Of a stretch of DNA of 22,656 nucleotides, positions 7,141 to 22,484 are shown piece by piece. The notes beneath the pieces are model-generated. The model worked only from the letters and a program-made list of their open reading frames with translations. It was not told where the DNA came from and ran no database searches. This DNA comes from a virus. The stretch lies in the IMG/VR virus record IMGVR_UViG_3300030380_004935, positions 16,939 to 39,594 of that record; one strand, written 5' to 3'. The position numbers were made by a program, and so were the translations under genes. The first letter of the stretch is position 1. Each line of letters starts with the position of its first letter.

Positions 7141-7318
7141 TTTCTTCTCCTTTGATTACTTTTAAATTTACCTTTTTTTCTTGAGGAAGATAAACTTCAA
7201 CGTAGCTGTCACAATTGGGACAACTTAAATTTGTCACAATACAATATTCTTCATTATCTTCTTCGATATCATGATCACCACCCCAAATTAATTCGTAATT
7301 ACAATGCCAACAATTCAT
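7124..7318 (-). CDS. Small zinc-finger protein coupled to DNA polymerase
   Basis: A 64-residue protein starting MNCWHCNYELIW. It has two CxxC pairs, CWHC near residues 3-6 and CPNC near 33-36, with an acidic segment between them. This is the layout of a four-Cys zinc ribbon. I choose ATG 7318 because it overlaps the DNA polymerase stop (ATGA) and follows a GGGGG run at normal spacing. An upstream TTG would add five residues. Zinc ribbons of this size usually bind nucleic acid or bridge proteins. Coupling to the polymerase suggests a replication or transcription accessory role, which is inference. Confidence 0.65.
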   Translation of the reverse strand: MNCWHCNYELIWGGDHDIEEDNEEYCIVTNLSCPNCDSYVEVYLPQEKKVNLKVIKGEENENNL

Positions 7319-9195
7319 TTTGCTTCCCCCCAATTATTTCCTGTTGCTACGTCTACTTTAGATGGAACACTCATTTCAATTGAATTTTCCATTACATTTA
7401 CTATTTTTTCTTGCATTTCTTTATCTCCGTTAAAGCTTATGGCCAATTCATCATGAATCTGAATCATTGGTATTATGCCTTCTTTGTAAAGATTGACCAT
7501 GGCTTTTTTTGTTTGATCTGCTGCTGATCCTTGTATCAATCTATTAAGAGCCTTATACGTCCCTGACCTTTTCAAAGGAGTATATTCTCCATATTCTTCC
7601 TTAGCTCTGTCTAAAGGATAAGCCCTATAAGAACCAAATGCCTTAGGCTCCCATAACTCAAAACGACATCTTCTACCTAAAAAAGTTTTAACTGCACCTT
7701 TTTTTTGAGCATGATCAGAAACTGCATCAGCTAATTGTCTTACAAAAGGAACTCTTTCATTGTATTGTTTAATTAACGATTTACCCTCCTCAGGATCAAT
7801 TCCTAATTGATCGGATAACTTACCCACACCCATGCCATAAAATAGTCCTAAATTTATCGTTTTAGCGCTTTTACGAGGTATATTTCCTATCTCAGCCATG
7901 ATTGTATGAAAGTCTGTGGTTTTATCTTCATTATAAGCTTTAACGATTTTTTCAGCCCCCTCCAATTTAACTATATTAGCATAGTGACTAACGAGACGTG
8001 GCTCTTGTTGTGAATAGTCGAAAGAACCCCATTGCTCTCCTTCTTCAGGTAAAAATAAACCTCTGATTAAAGAACCTATTTTTATATCAGAATTAGCATC
8101 ATCTTTAGCAGGAATTTGTTGAAGGTTGGGATTAGAATAACTAAATCTCCCTGTCAAAGTACCACCGTTCTCGGTTCGTAACTGATTGACGTTAGCATGT
8201 ATTCTACCTTTATGTTGATATCTTTCTATCGTATGGAGGAACGTGGTCCGTGCTTTGTTAAAGTTTCTAGCTTGAACAATTGCTTTTGGAATAGGATGAG
8301 GATGAAACTCTAAAAAGTTTTTTGTAAAAGAAGGATTACCTTTATCTGTTTTAGGATAATCTATTTTACAATGATCAAAGATAGTAGCAATGGAACGAGC
8401 AGCCCATATATCACATTTTAAATTAGTCTCACCAAAAACGTATTTTAAAAGTTCATTCTCTTTTTTTATAAAAGACTTTTCTGCTTTCTTTAATTTTTCT
8501 AAATCTACTCTTACACCTTTTTTTCTCATCTTCATCAAGATAGGAATTAAATCAGTTTCTAAATTAAATACTGTTTCCAAATCTTGTTGTGATATTTCAG
8601 GTTTTAATCTGTTCCATAATTTTAGAGACAAAACAGCGTCTTGCTCTGCGTATTCTCCTACATACTGAGAAGGTATTTTAAACATTTCACTCTTAGGATT
8701 CACACCCCATTGTGCTGCAGTTTCGTTTAATAAAAACTCACTTTTACTTTCAGCTAAATATTCTTTAGAAACTGCGTTCAGAGAATAACTAAATTTATTC
8801 TCATTAATCAAAGGAGCAACGATCATTGTATCAATGATACGACCATTCCACTTAACTCCTTCAGCTTCTAACCAACCAAAATCATAGGTGGCATTGTGAG
8901 CTATTTTCTCTCCCTCTCCTGAGAGCATTTCATTTAGCCAATCAAACACGACCCGTGAATCGTGATTAAATCCTGTCTCATGTCTAATAGGATAATATCC
9001 CTTCCAACCATCAACAGCTATGGCAACTCCAATTATTTCTCCATCATTGGTGGCCCAACCTGGGCCTTTCTCCATGATGTTAGGATCTTTAGTTTCTAAA
9101 TCAATTGCAATTTTATCAGCGTCTTTAATGTTAGGGAAATCCATAGGTGGAACCCATTCAGATTTTGGTTTGAACATACCAATTTGTTTACTCAT
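7315..9195 (-). CDS. Family A DNA polymerase with 3'-5' exonuclease
   Basis: This 626-residue replicative polymerase has a DEDDy proofreading domain followed by a palm/fingers domain and no 5' nuclease. Exonuclease residues are Asp32 and Glu34 (AIDLET), Asp105 (NATYD), and Tyr182/Asp186 (YAEQDA). Motif A is DYSQQEPR with Asp393. Motif B (O helix) runs from Arg441 through Lys445 to Tyr453-Gly454. Motif C is HDE at 581-583. The residue four after Lys445, equivalent to Phe762 of E. coli Pol I, is Leu449. Length and layout resemble the short polymerases of T7-like and marine podoviruses. ATGA overlaps link it to the helicase upstream and the zinc-finger gene downstream. All key catalytic residues are present, so it should be active in copying phage DNA. 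Confidence 0.95.
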   Translation of the reverse strand: MSKQIGMFKPKSEWVPPMDFPNIKDADKIAIDLETKDPNIMEKGPGWATNDGEIIGVAIAVDGWKGYYPIRHETGFNHDSRVVFDWLNEMLSGEGEKIAHNATYDFGWLEAEGVKWNGRIIDTMIVAPLINENKFSYSLNAVSKEYLAESKSEFLLNETAAQWGVNPKSEMFKIPSQYVGEYAEQDAVLSLKLWNRLKPEISQQDLETVFNLETDLIPILMKMRKKGVRVDLEKLKKAEKSFIKKENELLKYVFGETNLKCDIWAARSIATIFDHCKIDYPKTDKGNPSFTKNFLEFHPHPIPKAIVQARNFNKARTTFLHTIERYQHKGRIHANVNQLRTENGGTLTGRFSYSNPNLQQIPAKDDANSDIKIGSLIRGLFLPEEGEQWGSFDYSQQEPRLVSHYANIVKLEGAEKIVKAYNEDKTTDFHTIMAEIGNIPRKSAKTINLGLFYGMGVGKLSDQLGIDPEEGKSLIKQYNERVPFVRQLADAVSDHAQKKGAVKTFLGRRCRFELWEPKAFGSYRAYPLDRAKEEYGEYTPLKRSGTYKALNRLIQGSAADQTKKAMVNLYKEGIIPMIQIHDELAISFNGDKEMQEKIVNVMENSIEMSVPSKVDVATGNNWGEAK

Positions 9196-10796
9196 ATTCT
9201 ATAAGCCTCTCTTGATTGTGGTGTTATTATAAAAAGGTTTTCTTTAGCCCTTGAAAACGCCACATAGAAAAGTCTGTGCTCACTTATAGGATTGACCCTA
9301 TATTCCTCATACGCCATTTTTCCTATGTCTAAAGACACGATAACATTATCAGCTTCTCCACCTTTTTGTTGGTGTATGGTCGATAAAGTTACTCGTGGCT
9401 CTAAAGCTAAATTTTCTCCTCTAGACTCTAAATTTTCTAAGTAAGCAACAGTTTCTGTATTAATTGTTGTCATTACTTCTGTCCAAGGAGTTCCGAACTC
9501 AGCTTGTAATCCAAAATCATCTCTGAGTTCTAAAAAAGATAATTTCTTATCAGGAAAAGCTTTTCTTTGTTCAGATATTTTTTTCTTATTACCTCTCAAA
9601 ACAAATTCTTTTCCTAGACACTTGTATAAATTTTCTACTAATCTAATGGGAACCTCATTCTTCTCCTGTCTCATTAAGTCTTTCCAAGTTAGTATAGCAT
9701 TTCTTTCTTGGGTTTTAACTGAATATCTGTATTTATTATCTTTTAATTTTACCCTAAAAAAAATATTTTTCTTTCTCATAACTTCTTCCATGTCATCACG
9801 AATAGTTCTTGTTCGTCCCATAATTAACCAAGAACCCTCATCCATATTTAAATGATAAATACCCCTTATAAATTCTACTGCACCGTCTCTATTTGCTGGA
9901 GACCATTTAATATCGTCATAACCAATGATTTGTTCTTCTACACGATTAACTACTTCCCAAACTTTTCTTGGCACTCTTTTTGATTGATCTAAAACAATTA
10001 ATTCTTCAGCTTCTTCTTTTATTTGAATCGCTTTTCCCACATCAGCATCTGCCCAAGTATATATAGCTTGATTAGGGTCCATAGCTAAATAAGACTTATC
10101 AGAGTTCCTCCAAATCTTTTCTGCCATTTTCCATTGTATAGTAGACATGTCTTGAGACTCATCAAAGAAAACAACTTTAAAAGACTTATAGAAACTACCC
10201 TCAACATAGTTTTTTATAAGGTCTGTAAAATCTATTTTTGGCCCTTGATCTTTTACGAGATATCCATTTGTACCCCCTGTAAACTTCTTATATCCGAAAT
10301 TTTTGTAGTCTTTTAGACCCTTATCTATGTATTCTAGTTTATGCCAAATTATGTCCTTAGCAAACATAGCCCAACACTCCCTTAACGAAATATCTCTCCT
10401 TTTTGACTTTTCTATAAGATCAACATATTTGTCGTCATAGTTGTTGAAAAATATGTCATCATCATTATTAACGTTAATATTAATCCTAAGTTCATTTGAT
10501 ATGTTCCTCCAATCATTGTTACTCATTATATGTTCTCGTGTTAAACCCATTTGCCTCAGAGCAAAAGAGTGCATTGTACTAAAATGTTCTAAATGACTCA
10601 TGGGAACTTTAAACTTCTCTGAAGCTCTTTGTTTGGCCTCGTCTACTGCTTTATTTGAAAAAGAAAAGAAAGCTACCTCATCAATAGAAATTTCTTTCGA
10701 TAAATATTCTTCAATTTTATTTAATATAAAAGTGGTTTTACCTGTGCCTGGTGGACCAATAACAACTGTGGGTATTTTCTTATCCAATAAATTCAT
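9192..10796 (-). CDS. UvrD/Rep-like superfamily 1 DNA helicase
   Basis: A 534-residue ATP-dependent helicase. Motifs in order are Walker A GPPGTGKTT (residues 14-22), motif Ia FFSFSNKAVDEA (43-54), motif Ib FSTMHSFA (72-79), DFTDLI (189-194), Walker B FFDESQD (210-216), motif III MDPNQAIYTWADAD (239-252), a motif IV-like region with DQSKR, motif V STIHQQKGGEADNV, and motif VI YVAFSRAKENL near the C-terminus. The set matches SF1A enzymes that move 3' to 5', at somewhat less than the roughly 700 residues of UvrD. It overlaps the ABC/GNAT gene by 17 bases and the polymerase by four. It probably unwinds DNA ahead of the phage polymerase, or acts in recombination. Confidence 0.9.
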   Translation of the reverse strand: MNLLDKKIPTVVIGPPGTGKTTFILNKIEEYLSKEISIDEVAFFSFSNKAVDEAKQRASEKFKVPMSHLEHFSTMHSFALRQMGLTREHIMSNNDWRNISNELRININVNNDDDIFFNNYDDKYVDLIEKSKRRDISLRECWAMFAKDIIWHKLEYIDKGLKDYKNFGYKKFTGGTNGYLVKDQGPKIDFTDLIKNYVEGSFYKSFKVVFFDESQDMSTIQWKMAEKIWRNSDKSYLAMDPNQAIYTWADADVGKAIQIKEEAEELIVLDQSKRVPRKVWEVVNRVEEQIIGYDDIKWSPANRDGAVEFIRGIYHLNMDEGSWLIMGRTRTIRDDMEEVMRKKNIFFRVKLKDNKYRYSVKTQERNAILTWKDLMRQEKNEVPIRLVENLYKCLGKEFVLRGNKKKISEQRKAFPDKKLSFLELRDDFGLQAEFGTPWTEVMTTINTETVAYLENLESRGENLALEPRVTLSTIHQQKGGEADNVIVSLDIGKMAYEEYRVNPISEHRLFYVAFSRAKENLFIITPQSREAYRI

Positions 10797-11877
10797 GTGC
10801 GTAACAAACCCTTTCCTTATGTCTTTCTCTTAATTCTTGAGAATAACCACCAAAAGTTCTTATTTTTGTTTTACCTTCTTCTAATCTTTTTAATTCTTTT
10901 TCGTAATCATCTTTTCTATTTTGTTTGTTATGTGTTGTTGGTCTCCATTTTTCAGGATGTGCCTCTCTATATTCACCAAAACGAGGATGTGCTGTTTTAG
11001 AAAAGAAACGATGACCGATCTTCGTGAATTGTTGTGCTACTGCTTCCGATAAACGAACTCCTAATCCCAATCCTTGAAAGTCAGGTAATATCACTGTCCT
11101 GTGTTCTCTCCATGCTTTTTCTTTGATTGTTCCTGAGGGGAAGAAAATGACTGAAGCAAATCCAACTGGAACTCCTTGCCATGTTCCAAGCCAACATCGT
11201 GATGCGTTACTGATGTGTCCTGTGAGATAGTGATGGTCAGCGAAGTATGGCCAAATTTTGGGTGAACAAGGAACGACTTCCAAAACGACCTTGGGTCGCC
11301 TAAGTAACCCCCTTGTCACAACTTTGCTTGAGTTCGTATCGAAAACCCAATCAGGTTGCAACCAATCAATGATGTCATAATGACAAGAAGCAAAGACAAC
11401 ATTTTTAATATTTTTATTTCTTATAAATTTTTGTAAAGCATTAGAACAAGACTTAGCTACATTACGATCTACCACACTTGTAAACTCATCAATGATTGCA
11501 TTTTCTTTTATGCGTCTTGATAAGTCTGCCCTAAACTTTTCTCCTGTGCTTAAGACGTGATAAGGCTTCATCCAAGAGGGAATAGTATTGAAACCAACTG
11601 ATGACAATCTTTCTTGAGCTTCTTCAGATGTTGTAAAGTGAGAACAAACTGCTTTGTTTTTATCCCAATTTATAATTTCTTCTTCTCCAAAATCTTTTAA
11701 CAAGCTTGATTTACCTGTTCCTGATGCACCTACTATTAATCCTATATTAAAATCATTGTTTATATTTCTAAAATTAGGAAGCTCAAACTCAGTTTGACCA
11801 TTAAATTTGTAATCGAACATTGTGCTGATCTCATCTGTGATTTGATCAGTTTGAACCTGTGAAGTTAGTTTTTTCAA
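10780..11877 (-). CDS. ABC-type ATPase fused to a GNAT acetyltransferase domain
   Basis: The N-terminal half carries a full ABC ATPase set: Walker A GASGTGKSS (50-58), signature LSTGE (109-113), Walker B AIIDEF (about 127-132) with D-loop SVVDR, and the switch His in CHYD (166). No membrane segments are present, so it is soluble. The C-terminal half, about residues 197-305, looks like a GNAT domain, with ASVIFFPSG on a core strand and the acetyl-CoA loop QGLGLG at 268-273. A basic tail follows. The start is probably TTG 11877, which overlaps the primase stop (TTGA) and follows GAGGAGG. An internal ATG at codon 20 is the alternative. It sits between primase and helicase, so a DNA-related job is likely. 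Related GNAT folds include the phage Mu DNA-modifying protein Mom. The substrate is unknown. Confidence 0.78.
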   Translation of the reverse strand: MKKLTSQVQTDQITDEISTMFDYKFNGQTEFELPNFRNINNDFNIGLIVGASGTGKSSLLKDFGEEEIINWDKNKAVCSHFTTSEEAQERLSSVGFNTIPSWMKPYHVLSTGEKFRADLSRRIKENAIIDEFTSVVDRNVAKSCSNALQKFIRNKNIKNVVFASCHYDIIDWLQPDWVFDTNSSKVVTRGLLRRPKVVLEVVPCSPKIWPYFADHHYLTGHISNASRCWLGTWQGVPVGFASVIFFPSGTIKEKAWREHRTVILPDFQGLGLGVRLSEAVAQQFTKIGHRFFSKTAHPRFGEYREAHPEKWRPTTHNKQNRKDDYEKELKRLEEGKTKIRTFGGYSQELRERHKERVCYAHEFIG

Positions 11878-13433
11878 AATGGTATGTCCTCCTCTATATC
11901 TTTCTGTTGTTTCATATTAGGAACCTCAAGACTAACTTCTTCTATTGTTAACTGTTTAATCTTCCATAGTCTAACCCTTGTATTTTTAACAGTTCTAATT
12001 AAATCTTCTGCATTATACTCCTCTTTTAATCTCATAGTCACCCAAGGTCTTGATTCCTTAAAATCATTTCTTTTCAAGTGGTCCATTAAATCTTTTAAAG
12101 CAAAGTAAGTAAACCCCTCCTCAGTATAAGATTTACCTAAAAATATATCAGCCATAGTTAAAGCTTCTCCTTGATGTAAACAAAACTCCTCTAACAGTTC
12201 CTTAAACTCACCTTTCTTTGTAACTTCTTCAGGAGGATGATCTATTGATATAGATTCAAATAAATCACTATATGTTTGATTCCATTCAGCAGAACTCATG
12301 TTCATAATTCCTGTATTTAATTGTTCCAAACAAGCTTGAATAATTTTTTTATGAGTCATCAAATCCTCAGTATTTGATATTTCAATTCTTCTGTCATCAA
12401 CGTTGAGAAAGTATCTTGGAGGATCAGATTTATAAACTTTTAAATCAGAATAAACAGGATGGTCTCTATCACCTTCGCTACCAATACCGAACTTTCTTTT
12501 CTTACAAAGTCTTTTATTACATAAAGACTCGATAGGAGGCTGAGAACAACGATACATATATTTAGGAGCACCATTGTTATCACTCTGACTGACTTGTTTT
12601 ATAACTATTAATACTTCATCTGACTTTAAAGGTGGTGTTATATAGTTTCTATTATACTCTTCGATTAACTCTTTATAACTATCAGGGTCTGCTTTTCGAT
12701 AGTAAACGCCTACATTGAACAGAGCGTTATTCCTGGAGCCATCGGAGACACCCTGTTCAGTAAGTATTTGTAGGCATGGAGGTCCGTCTTTAATAACCTC
12801 GTTCTTGAAATCGGTTTTAATCGACTTGAGAGCACCAACAACAAGGTTATCGTAGTAAGAAAGAAACTCTTCTAAACTTAAAGCACTACCAACACTGTTG
12901 AGGCCATAACGACTTCTTCCGTGATAAGGTAGATTAATCCAACTTCCTGTATCTCTTTTTTCTTCTCCCTCTCTTTGATAGAGTTCAATTTGTTTAGGAA
13001 ATACTTCAGCTTTAGGGAAACCCATGGTGGTTGCCATTTCGCTAAGTTTAGTTTGCATGTCTTTCGCTGAGACATAATCTTTTGTAAATAAATATAAATG
13101 TGCGCCACCACTTTTTGATAGACACATAATTAAAGGAAACTTCTTTTGTTTTATTTTTTTTAATAATGATTTGTGATCTAAAGGATAGACATCAATATCT
13201 ATTGCACCAAACTTACATTTATCATCATCGTTAATCGGAACGATACCCATTGCAGGATATTCTCCTTTAAGATGTGATTCAAATTTTTCTAAGGACGGTG
13301 GCTCGTGGACCGTTTTCATATGAGCCTCAACCTTTACACCTTCTTGGGGTTCATTCTTTTTTTCGAATACACCATGAGCTCTCTCTAGCCCTGTAAATAT
13401 ATCCTTAAATTTTTGTACTAATTCTAGCTCCAT
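11874..13433 (-). CDS. AEP-family primase-polymerase (PrimPol) with Cys cluster and SSB-like tail
   Basis: This 519-residue protein has the archaeo-eukaryotic primase signatures: DxD metal ligands in AIDID (Asp79, Asp81), SGGAH (108-112), EVFPKQ (143-148) and INLPYHG (166-172). A PriCT-like helical segment follows with GSRNNALF (232-239). Cys220, Cys296, Cys305 and Cys310 could bind Zn or an Fe-S cluster. The C-terminal 200 residues are of unknown fold and end in DIEEDIPF, an SSB-like acidic tip. The protein should make primers for the family A polymerase. A GAGGAA site lies just before the ATG, and a structured leader of about 116 bases precedes it. The stop overlaps the next start (TTGA). 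Phages of this kind often use a T7 gp4 primase-helicase instead; none is seen here. Confidence 0.88.
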   Translation of the reverse strand: MELELVQKFKDIFTGLERAHGVFEKKNEPQEGVKVEAHMKTVHEPPSLEKFESHLKGEYPAMGIVPINDDDKCKFGAIDIDVYPLDHKSLLKKIKQKKFPLIMCLSKSGGAHLYLFTKDYVSAKDMQTKLSEMATTMGFPKAEVFPKQIELYQREGEEKRDTGSWINLPYHGRSRYGLNSVGSALSLEEFLSYYDNLVVGALKSIKTDFKNEVIKDGPPCLQILTEQGVSDGSRNNALFNVGVYYRKADPDSYKELIEEYNRNYITPPLKSDEVLIVIKQVSQSDNNGAPKYMYRCSQPPIESLCNKRLCKKRKFGIGSEGDRDHPVYSDLKVYKSDPPRYFLNVDDRRIEISNTEDLMTHKKIIQACLEQLNTGIMNMSSAEWNQTYSDLFESISIDHPPEEVTKKGEFKELLEEFCLHQGEALTMADIFLGKSYTEEGFTYFALKDLMDHLKRNDFKESRPWVTMRLKEEYNAEDLIRTVKNTRVRLWKIKQLTIEEVSLEVPNMKQQKDIEEDIPF

Positions 13434-21260: not shown

Positions 21261-21578
21261 TTATATCTCCTTTTCTTCTAGTTTATTTTTAAAAACAAGT
21301 AATTGTTTTTTAAGTGTTGGTGTTATTTTGATACCGTCTACGTCATAAGTTTTGTTCTCAAAAGTAATGTGATTAATTAAAAAAGAAATAAACTCGTCTC
21401 CGAATTCATATCTTTCTCTTTCATCATTCCAATACTCCCAAATTTCTTTGAAAGTATAGCCACACCAATTATCAAAAGATTTGAGTAAATACTCAATCTC
21501 ATCGAATAGTTTGTCCTCATCGTATGCTTTCTTAAAAAGATAATCCCATACGAGTTCGTGTATGTCTTCTCTAGTCAT
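21261..21578 (-). CDS. Hypothetical 105-aa acidic protein
   Basis: A 105-residue, strongly acidic helical protein starting MTREDIHELVWDYLF, with AAAGGAGAG before the ATG. It is rich in Asp/Glu and Trp/Tyr/Phe, for example NWCGYTFKEIWEYW, a composition often seen in small phage proteins that mimic DNA or bind host enzymes. Its ribosome site follows directly after the terminator-like hairpin of the RNA gene. No family recognised. Confidence 0.58.
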   Translation of the reverse strand: MTREDIHELVWDYLFKKAYDEDKLFDEIEYLLKSFDNWCGYTFKEIWEYWNDERERYEFGDEFISFLINHITFENKTYDVDGIKITPTLKKQLLVFKNKLEEKEI

Positions 21579-21603
21579 TGTTTGCTCTCCTTTTATTTTA
21601 ATG

Positions 21604-21625
21604 AAAAGTAGCCCCTAAGGGCTAC
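21604..21625 (-). terminator. Intrinsic terminator-like hairpin ending the structured RNA unit
   Basis: GTAGCCC (21608-21614) and GGGCTAC (21619-21625) form a perfect 7-bp, GC-rich stem with a four-base loop. In the leftward direction it is followed directly by TTTT and then an A/T-rich run. The plus strand lacks a U tract. It lies about 50 bases past the end of the structured RNA and just before the ribosome site of the 105-aa acidic gene. Confidence 0.65.
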
Positions 21626-21675
21626 CATGGGTCAAGTACTATAACTAACATTATAGAACCTCCTTTATTGAAACG

Positions 21676-21889
21676 AAGAAAGACCTATAAACGCTTGTGG
21701 GATTTGAACTTATTACCCACAACTTTCGGTAGAACAGATAGTTTCTCATCTACTCGCACTTACTTCTTAGGCCCTCAGCCATTTGGCCATGCTTCCTAAG
21801 ATCAATACCTTACGACTCTGTTTTAAAATCGTTATTCAGTCAGAGCGTCCACAAACAAATTGCAATTTGTTTGATTCTAGGTCTTTCTT
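21676..21889 (-). ncRNA. Structured non-coding RNA, multi-hairpin, with tRNA-like blocks
   Basis: A 12-bp perfect stem (21676-21687 with 21878-21889) encloses about 190 bases with no usable ORF. Inside, in leftward order, are: a 22-base perfect palindrome (21852-21873); a stem 21841-21848 with 21812-21820 (one bulge); a 7-bp stem 21795-21801 with 21765-21771 holding a small GCC/GGC hairpin; a stem 21749-21756 with 21727-21733 (one bulge); and a 7-bp stem 21716-21722 with 21695-21701. The third domain reads ATGGCCAAATGGCTGAGGGC, like a type II tRNA D arm, and the last loop holds GTTCAAATC, like a T loop. No normal anticodon or acceptor stem forms, so it is not an ordinary tRNA. Promoter-like boxes and a terminator flank it. 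I recognise no known RNA family. Confidence 0.7.
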
Positions 21890-21903
21890 TATTTCTTATA
21901 CTT

Positions 21904-21933
21904 ACTATATCGAGACATTGTAAAAAAATTCAA
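21904..21933 (-). promoter_or_regulatory. Sigma70-like promoter for the structured RNA
   Basis: On the minus strand TTGAAT (21933-21928) and TATAGT (21909-21904) are separated by 18 bases. Transcription would start near 21897, about eight bases before the closing stem of the structured RNA. Both hexamers are close to consensus for a host housekeeping sigma factor. The surrounding DNA is AT-rich, so chance matches are possible, but the position is apt. Confidence 0.5.
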
Positions 21934-22196
21934 GTTTTTTTTATCTCTTACTATATGTATGTGTGTTTTTATTTTTTTTTCAACCAACTATTTTAAAAAG
22001 TTTTGGTCAGTGGGTTTGTGAAGATTGATAACAAAAGTTATGATGATGATACTTTGAGTTACTCATTTAACCCAACACCCTTAAAACTTAAGAAATCATT
22101 TTAGTTCACTTTAGACAACCCACGTGCCTACAATATGCAAAAAGCATCAATTACACATTGTCCAAGACCCCACATCGGAGTCTTAGAAAATGTATA
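21934..22196. other. Unassigned intergenic region
   Basis: About 260 bases without a credible ORF on either strand. They hold poly-T and poly-A tracts (about 21934-21985) and a hairpin at 22164-22171 with 22177-22184. That stem pairs better in leftward RNA (one G-U wobble) than in rightward RNA (one C-A mismatch). No U tract follows it. It lies about 12 bases past the stop of the 95-aa gene and could stabilise that transcript's 3' end. I see nothing else recognisable. Confidence 0.4.
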
Positions 22197-22484
22197 TTAT
22201 TTTTCATATTCTCTCTTGATGTCATAAAGAGCATCGTCTTTTGCTCTTTGTTTCTCTTGAGTGATTTGCTCAATTAAGTGAGGGAGCGCTTGTTCGTGCT
22301 CCACTGCTTCGTCCCAAAGATCACAAAAACGTTTGAGATAATCCTCTTGTTCTTTTGTTAAAGAGTTCGTATAAAGATTATTATATAAAACGTCATCTGC
22401 TGACCCTTTTTCTACGTTTTTGTTTTCTTCTTTACTTAGCCAACGAGTGTAAACCTCGGTTAGCTTGGTTATATGATCTGCCAT
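22197..22484 (-). CDS. Hypothetical 95-aa helical acidic protein
   Basis: A 95-residue protein starting MADHITKLTEVYTRWLS, with AAAGGA before the ATG. It is almost wholly helical and charged, with no membrane segment, and one cysteine near residue 54. It follows the next gene's stop by 15 bases, in the same leftward group. No family recognised. Confidence 0.57.
   Translation of the reverse strand: MADHITKLTEVYTRWLSKEENKNVEKGSADDVLYNNLYTNSLTKEQEDYLKRFCDLWDEAVEHEQALPHLIEQITQEKQRAKDDALYDIKREYEK

Follow-up and report, generated by a model that had tools for sequence, protein, structure and literature searches.

A manA-like structured RNA followed by a conserved nine-codon reading frame in a probable SAR11-type phage

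The cassette and its surroundings

The window, that is, the whole stretch of 22,656 nucleotides analysed here, is the final 22.7 kb of a 39.6-kb virus record. The family A DNA polymerase of the phage is about 50% identical to those of the Pelagibacter phages HTVC023P and 023Pt_psg01, and a SAR11-type host is therefore likely. In the replication gene block, a 365-aa protein (10780-11877, minus strand) begins with a region like a P-loop ATPase (GASGTGKSSLLKDF); its residues 209-290 match a GNAT acetyltransferase domain in Pfam. For the primase encoded at 11874-13433 (minus strand), the resemblance is to PF22548, the archaeo-eukaryotic primase domain known from TOTE conflict systems, and to PriCT-1. 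The cassette studied here lies close to the end of the window, and the following features were assigned to it and to the next gene.

21594..21996, minus strand: cassette (promoter, RNA, micro-ORF, terminator) with an 8-bp direct repeat at either end
21996-21989 and 21601-21594, minus strand: the 8-bp direct repeats, TTAAAATA
21904..21933, minus strand: promoter-like pair, TTGAAT (21933-21928), 18 nt, TATAGT (21909-21904)
21676..21889, minus strand: body of the structured RNA, with the 12-bp clamp P0 as its closing stem, as delimited by comparison of relatives
21889-21878 / 21687-21676, minus strand: arms of clamp P0
21687..21865, minus strand: match to Rfam manA RF01745, model positions 1-192 (full length), 27.7 bits
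21851..21874, minus strand: hairpin P1 with a TTGCAA loop, between clamp and core
21690..21849, minus strand: manA-type core
21849-21843 / 21696-21690, minus strand: core helix P2; an invariant CTGACTGAAYA stands between P2 and P3
21832-21825 / 21819-21812, minus strand: core helix P3, followed by AAGGT
21808-21756, minus strand: core P4
21753-21729, minus strand: core P5, followed by CCGAAAGTTG
about 21720-21716 / 21701-21697, minus strand: core helix P6
21659..21664, minus strand: Shine-Dalgarno sequence AGGAGG, separated from the micro-ORF start by 7 nt
21622..21651, minus strand: micro-ORF ATGTTAGTTATAGTACTTGACCCATGGTAG, MLVIVLDPW*, 9 codons, between clamp and terminator
21603..21626, minus strand: intrinsic terminator GGTAGCCC-TTAG-GGGCTACT with a short T-run
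21261..21578, minus strand: next gene, 105 aa, no family match

The initial annotation had described a stand-alone structured RNA gene with a promoter-like pair and a terminator-like hairpin followed by TTTT. Taken alone the promoter pair is weak (9/12), and six such sites were found in the 900-bp region examined, against 3.1 by chance, but a promoter upstream of the RNA was kept in most relatives, in position and mostly in sequence. A block TTGAATTTTT...TCGATAT(A/T) before the RNA was likewise conserved in most close relatives. The terminator hairpin stood up to analysis (21626-21607), but its T-run is short (TTTTCATT).

Comparison of related loci delimited the unit. Locus L250 was 96-100% identical to locus L017 on both sides and lacked everything from the promoter region to the terminator, a stretch of about 395 bp (390-400); the junction, near position 2001 of L250, falls at one 8-bp repeat TTAAAATA. 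Such an occupied/empty pair may reflect target-site duplication on insertion or deletion between short repeats, both being possible.

Four sister RNAs (L106, L134, L108 and L135) possess the promoter, a 5' hairpin and the RNA, and have no micro-ORF. The promoter of L108 and L135 reads TTGACA-17-CATAAT, the promoter of L106 also contains TTGACA, and nine T come directly after the clamp of L135. In both L106 and L135 a separate promoter serves the next gene. An Rfam scan of phage 023Pt_psg01, whose genome is complete, detected nothing, but a covariance model of the window's clade identified a homologue there at 33.3 bits (E 1.8e-6). This homologue lies on the minus strand, with all annotated neighbours on the plus strand. 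A terminator precedes this RNA, and TTGACA...TATATA lies in front of it.

The window's own next gene has no obvious promoter, and the terminator before it is weak. It represents just one among many gene families found 3' of the cassette across phages: a survey of 24 loci gave 13 groups, a few of them doubtful ORFs, with at least nine unrelated families. Homologues of the window's downstream gene occur without the RNA in L250, L251 and L256.

These comparisons give good support to the view that the cassette, from promoter to terminator, is one independent unit. The unit carries its own promoter and terminator and appears to need no neighbour gene, as expected of a stand-alone small RNA gene; the original proposal to this effect is borne out by the sister RNAs without an ORF, the empty-site allele and the homologue on the opposite strand. 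No second copy of the RNA was found in the remaining part of the 39.6-kb record. Upstream of the cassette, at about 22150-22200 (minus strand), a near-palindrome TACATTTTCTAAGACTCC...GGGGTCTTGGACAATGTGTA is kept between phages and is perhaps a bidirectional terminator.

Structure of the RNA and its relation to manA

The interval 21933-21604 on the minus strand folded at -97.1 kcal/mol, against -71.8 kcal/mol in shuffled sequences (z -4.87, 0/100). The plus strand of the same interval also folded strongly (z -5.6); therefore folding alone does not fix the strand. The strand of the RNA is set by the order of promoter, Shine-Dalgarno sequence and terminator, together with covariation and comparison of relatives.

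Covariation was assessed in an alignment of 25 relatives comprising 62 pairs in ten helices. Standard pairing amounted to 95.5%, compared with 33-46% when the partners were slid, and 30 of the 62 pairs were changed on both sides. The covariation score was 0.373 versus 0.172 after shuffling, a value that none of 500 shuffles reached. RNAalifold, run without an imposed structure, recovered most helices and proposed an extra small helix in the P5 arm (AAC/GUU versus GUU/GAC). These comparisons indicate that the structured RNA is real and strongly conserved. The 12-bp closing stem seen at the outset was kept, with changes on both sides in 10 of its 12 pairs, the internal hairpins were conserved with compensatory changes, and the search for paired substitutions among homologues that the initial annotation had recommended gave a positive answer.

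The initial annotation had matched the RNA to no known class and suggested a search with covariance models. This search aligned it with the full length of the Rfam manA model, the sole relevant Rfam match. The score is 27.7 bits, with an E-value of 4.9e-7 when the 39.6-kb record is searched for this family. It lies below the manA gathering cut-off of 55.2 bits, and the RNA is therefore called a homologue or subfamily and not a listed manA member.

Relatives were collected from IMG/VR with a DNA pattern of conserved blocks, which retrieved 89 stretches, and with a second pattern from the 3' half of the RNA, which retrieved 53. Their Rfam manA scores formed a continuous series between 124 and 14 bits that crosses the cut-off, the window's clade occupying about 20-39 bits. 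As a reciprocal test, the covariance model built from the window's clade alone was used. It found manA RNAs scoring above the Rfam threshold in L118 (E 5e-8), L122 (2e-12) and L076 (1.4e-5), and those of named cyanophages at E of about 1e-3 to 0.02 (S-SSM4, 9e-4). Since a clade-only model recovers bona fide manA RNAs, the window RNA is, by sequence and predicted structure, a divergent, clamp-stabilised manA subfamily.

With RF01745 the window RNA shares the full-length alignment, a closing helix, the hairpins, occurrence in marine phages and the blocks TGACTGAATAA - hairpin - GTAAGGT ... GTGGGTA...AATCCCAC. It differs in its sub-gathering score, in the additional 12-bp clamp P0 and in the Shine-Dalgarno sequence, 9-codon ORF and terminator that follow the RNA. 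The core is homologous to the manA RNAs of the T4-like cyanophages S-SSM4, S-SSM7, P-RSM1, P-RSM4, P-TIM40 and P-TIM68, which, unlike the window RNA, have neither clamp P0 nor micro-ORF.

The suggestion of a highly modified tRNA-like RNA was abandoned: the tRNA and tmRNA models gave no match at E <= 10 in the Rfam scan, and ARAGORN found nothing. A BLAST search with the RNA against isolated phages returned a spurious 27-bp match only. The wider scan of bacterial genomes gave mostly chance pattern matches and one convincing manA-type core, at L231 348-532 (58 bits with the clade model), on a contig that is binned as candidate division WOR-3 and is probably phage DNA.

The micro-ORF and its terminator

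The interval had been described as free of ORFs, which did not hold: clamp and terminator are separated by AGGAGG and the 9-codon MLVIVLDPW*, both of them conserved. The micro-ORF was kept in about 20 relatives, in forms that include MLIIVLDPW, MIIIVLDPW, MVIIVLDPW, MIVIVLDPW, MFIVLDPW, MFVVLDPW, MIVIVIDDW, MIIIIDLDYW, MLIIVFDDW and MIIIILEPI. Its length varies in whole codons, from 8 to 10, and the Shine-Dalgarno sequence before it was always kept. Variants at codon positions 1, 2 and 3 numbered 9, 2 and 14. The pattern M-[ILVFM]5-[DE] was found in 14/14 distinct 9-codon forms, whereas the same number of changes placed at random left it in 5.6 forms on average and in 10 at most, in statistics that ignore the relatedness of the sequences. 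The substitution pattern indicates that the micro-ORF is under coding selection.

IMG/VR was scanned for the 3' end of the micro-ORF, and the RNA was linked to it in 17/17 places; the micro-ORF without this RNA was thus not found among them. The places not previously known to carry the RNA (L093-L098) all had it directly upstream, including L095, an incomplete sequence in which the 3' half of the RNA precedes the micro-ORF.

The 5' arm of the terminator starts in the last sense codon of the micro-ORF and includes its stop codon TAG; therefore translation and termination cannot be independent. On this evidence the lineage is a new manA variant, in which the RNA is tied to a 9-codon ORF and its terminator. 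No mention of the micro-ORF was found in the main texts of the manA literature consulted. If the assignment is true, the micro-ORF would in our judgement be among the smallest conserved phage coding sequences known, tied to one structured RNA and to the terminator of that RNA.

Leader peptides such as TnaC and ErmCL act by terminator control or ribosome stalling. The window ORF resembles them in being short, in its strong Shine-Dalgarno sequence, in the overlapping intrinsic terminator and in the conserved residues near the stop; it differs from them in that it has no conserved downstream target or known inducer and is preceded by a large structured RNA. A structured RNA followed by a very short ORF is also found in the downstream-peptide and glnA RNAs of cyanobacteria and cyanophages. 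The window has this arrangement in a phage, but Rfam scans gave no match of sequence or structure to those RNAs, and its ORF has 8-10 codons and ends in a terminator.

manA across phages and possible roles

Weinberg et al. 2010 (PMC2864571) placed manA in 5' UTRs and named it a riboswitch candidate, and PMC9964418 describes it likewise; its covariation is strong (PMC7779021), and the 5'-UTR description is repeated in the S-CREM1 and review papers. A functional test of manA was not found in the main texts of this literature.

The arrangement of manA among the phages analysed was mixed. S-SSM4 and P-RSM1 have a manA promoter of their own, with the -10 a few nt before the RNA, and a terminator just 3' of it with no ORF, in which, apart from the micro-ORF, they are like the window; promoters directly upstream of manA were seen in the named cyanophages. 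In cyanophage tRNA arrays, the RNA abuts tRNAs with gaps of 0-2 nt: L076 carries tRNA-Ala (8207-8278), manA (8280-8478) and tRNA-Asn (8480-8551), L065 and L089 carry tRNA-Thr, manA and tRNA-Asn with gaps of 1-2 nt, and manA of S-SSM7 adjoins tRNA-Gly. Promoter-like pairs lay just upstream in 20/48 sequence clusters (4.7 expected) and terminators just downstream in 18/48 (0.3 expected), the expectations being those of mononucleotide shuffles and the clusters being partly dependent.

The published layout, a Shine-Dalgarno sequence and gene 15-35 nt 3' of manA, was present in some clusters only, in a count whose controls were likewise mononucleotide shuffles. Several relatives have this layout with an ordinary gene and no terminator, and in P-TIM40 the gene after manA is talC; in many other cases there is no downstream gene. 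In the window the order is Shine-Dalgarno sequence and 9-codon ORF, terminator, then gene. Own promoters and terminators, abutment to tRNAs and opposite-strand cases argue that the 'cis-regulatory' label is not valid for manA in general. The RNAs look like free-standing phage RNAs and not like riboswitches, and the window RNA likewise behaves as an independent unit, in contrast to the family description as cis-regulatory in 5' UTRs.

The reading that we prefer, with a probability of about 0.5, is that the window encodes an independent manA-type phage small RNA which acts in trans, perhaps on translation, its micro-ORF tuning termination. Transcription would start at the own promoter, produce the clamp-closed, multi-branched RNA and end at the own terminator, so that the locus would yield a discrete transcript. 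The RNA body would act in trans during infection, with the translation apparatus as its likeliest target or partner, since in cyanophages the same RNA is part of tRNA arrays and does without a protein gene downstream; it is this neighbourhood, and nothing else, that points to translation.

In the window lineage the transcript would hold a translated ORF of 8-10 codons with its stop codon inside the terminator stem. A ribosome ending the micro-ORF would sit over the terminator's 5' arm, which may tune read-through into the next gene and also the lifetime of the RNA 3' end. The purine strand of P0 could hold the pyrimidine strand off the Shine-Dalgarno sequence, and folding of the RNA may in this way license translation of the micro-ORF. 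When the 5' strand of the clamp was omitted from the computation, the window's Shine-Dalgarno sequence went from 0.42 to 0.05 unpaired by pairing with the freed pyrimidine strand; in several relatives the effect was smaller or absent. These computations weakly support a competition between clamp and Shine-Dalgarno sequence. Its sequestration as a conserved switch was rejected, the effect being modest and not universal among relatives.

We hold more tentatively the wider reading that manA RNAs are free-standing phage small RNAs, some processed from tRNA arrays, which act in trans on host translation, the window lineage being a dual-function form whose micro-ORF stop controls the terminator. To our knowledge, manA has been a riboswitch candidate since 2010 without a ligand. 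If most members are independent phage RNAs, to search for a ligand in cis would be the wrong question; the right ones would concern the ends of the manA RNA, its binding partner and its activity in trans, and cyanophages in culture, S-SSM4 or P-RSM1 for example, would allow them to be addressed without delay.

Rather unlikely, by our estimate, is a switch in cis, as a riboswitch or leader-peptide attenuator, in which the manA fold senses a ligand and sets read-through via clamp, Shine-Dalgarno sequence, micro-ORF and terminator. It agrees with the published candidacy (PMC2864571), with the 5'-UTR-like part of the family in which a Shine-Dalgarno sequence and gene follow without a terminator, with the overlap of the weak window terminator by the micro-ORF stop, and with the capacity of the clamp 3' strand to pair with the Shine-Dalgarno sequence. 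Features of an attenuator do appear to be present, namely a Shine-Dalgarno sequence, an ORF under coding selection and an overlapping intrinsic terminator; as regards an antiterminator or stalling, the modest computed competition was all that was found. The consistent class of downstream gene expected of a riboswitch is, however, lacking, at least nine families standing after nearly the same RNA, and RNAs in tRNA arrays, before terminators without an ORF, or antisense to their neighbours have no target in cis. A simple cis-regulator of the downstream gene is weakened by this variety and by the gene homologues that lack the RNA.

The peptide itself, 8-10 hydrophobic residues ending in D-x-W, could be the product, with the RNA a mere stabilising leader. 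Peptide-level coding selection, length changes in codon steps and the ever-present Shine-Dalgarno sequence would suit this improbable reading, but the sister RNAs and nearly the whole family keep the RNA without the ORF, the peptide never occurs apart from the RNA, and the conservation near the C-terminus would also suit a function within the ribosome.

A tRNA-like or tmRNA-like decoy for a host nuclease or RNA-binding protein is more doubtful still. tRNAs and a permuted tmRNA are neighbours in the family and there are superficial D-arm- and T-arm-like stretches, of which the CCGAAAGTTG.GGGT..CCC pattern matches true tRNAs too; against this, the tRNA and tmRNA models and ARAGORN were negative, and the T-arm-like loop of about 14 nt varies through the family. 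Strong compensatory variation among many homologues refutes the reading as a chance fold or a decayed host gene, for which the AT-rich intergenic DNA might speak; no host homologue was found.

Several further arrangements were seen around manA. In P-RSM1, P-RSM4, P-TIM40 and P-TIM68 (L102, L246, L101 and L247) terminator and promoter are fused, the -35 (TTGACA/TTGACG) lying in the terminator loop of the preceding unit and the -10 just past its T-run. L076 (IMGVR_UViG_3300020456_000192) carries at 7911-8551 a permuted tmRNA of cyanobacterial type (RF01851/RF04321), followed by tRNA-Ala, manA and tRNA-Asn, and the phage contig L136, which also has manA and six tRNAs, contains at about 7183-7563 a tmRNA predicted by ARAGORN with the tag GETQYALAA. 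In L087 / L088 two manA RNAs, scoring 47.3 and 25.9 bits, stand in tandem with a few nt between them, ahead of a terminator hairpin. Two deposited 'hypothetical proteins', SSSM7_180 of S-SSM7 (L099 2556-2687) and ORF_135 of S-TIM4 (L248 1628-1819), overlap manA, one in sense and the other in antisense orientation, and are probably annotation artefacts.
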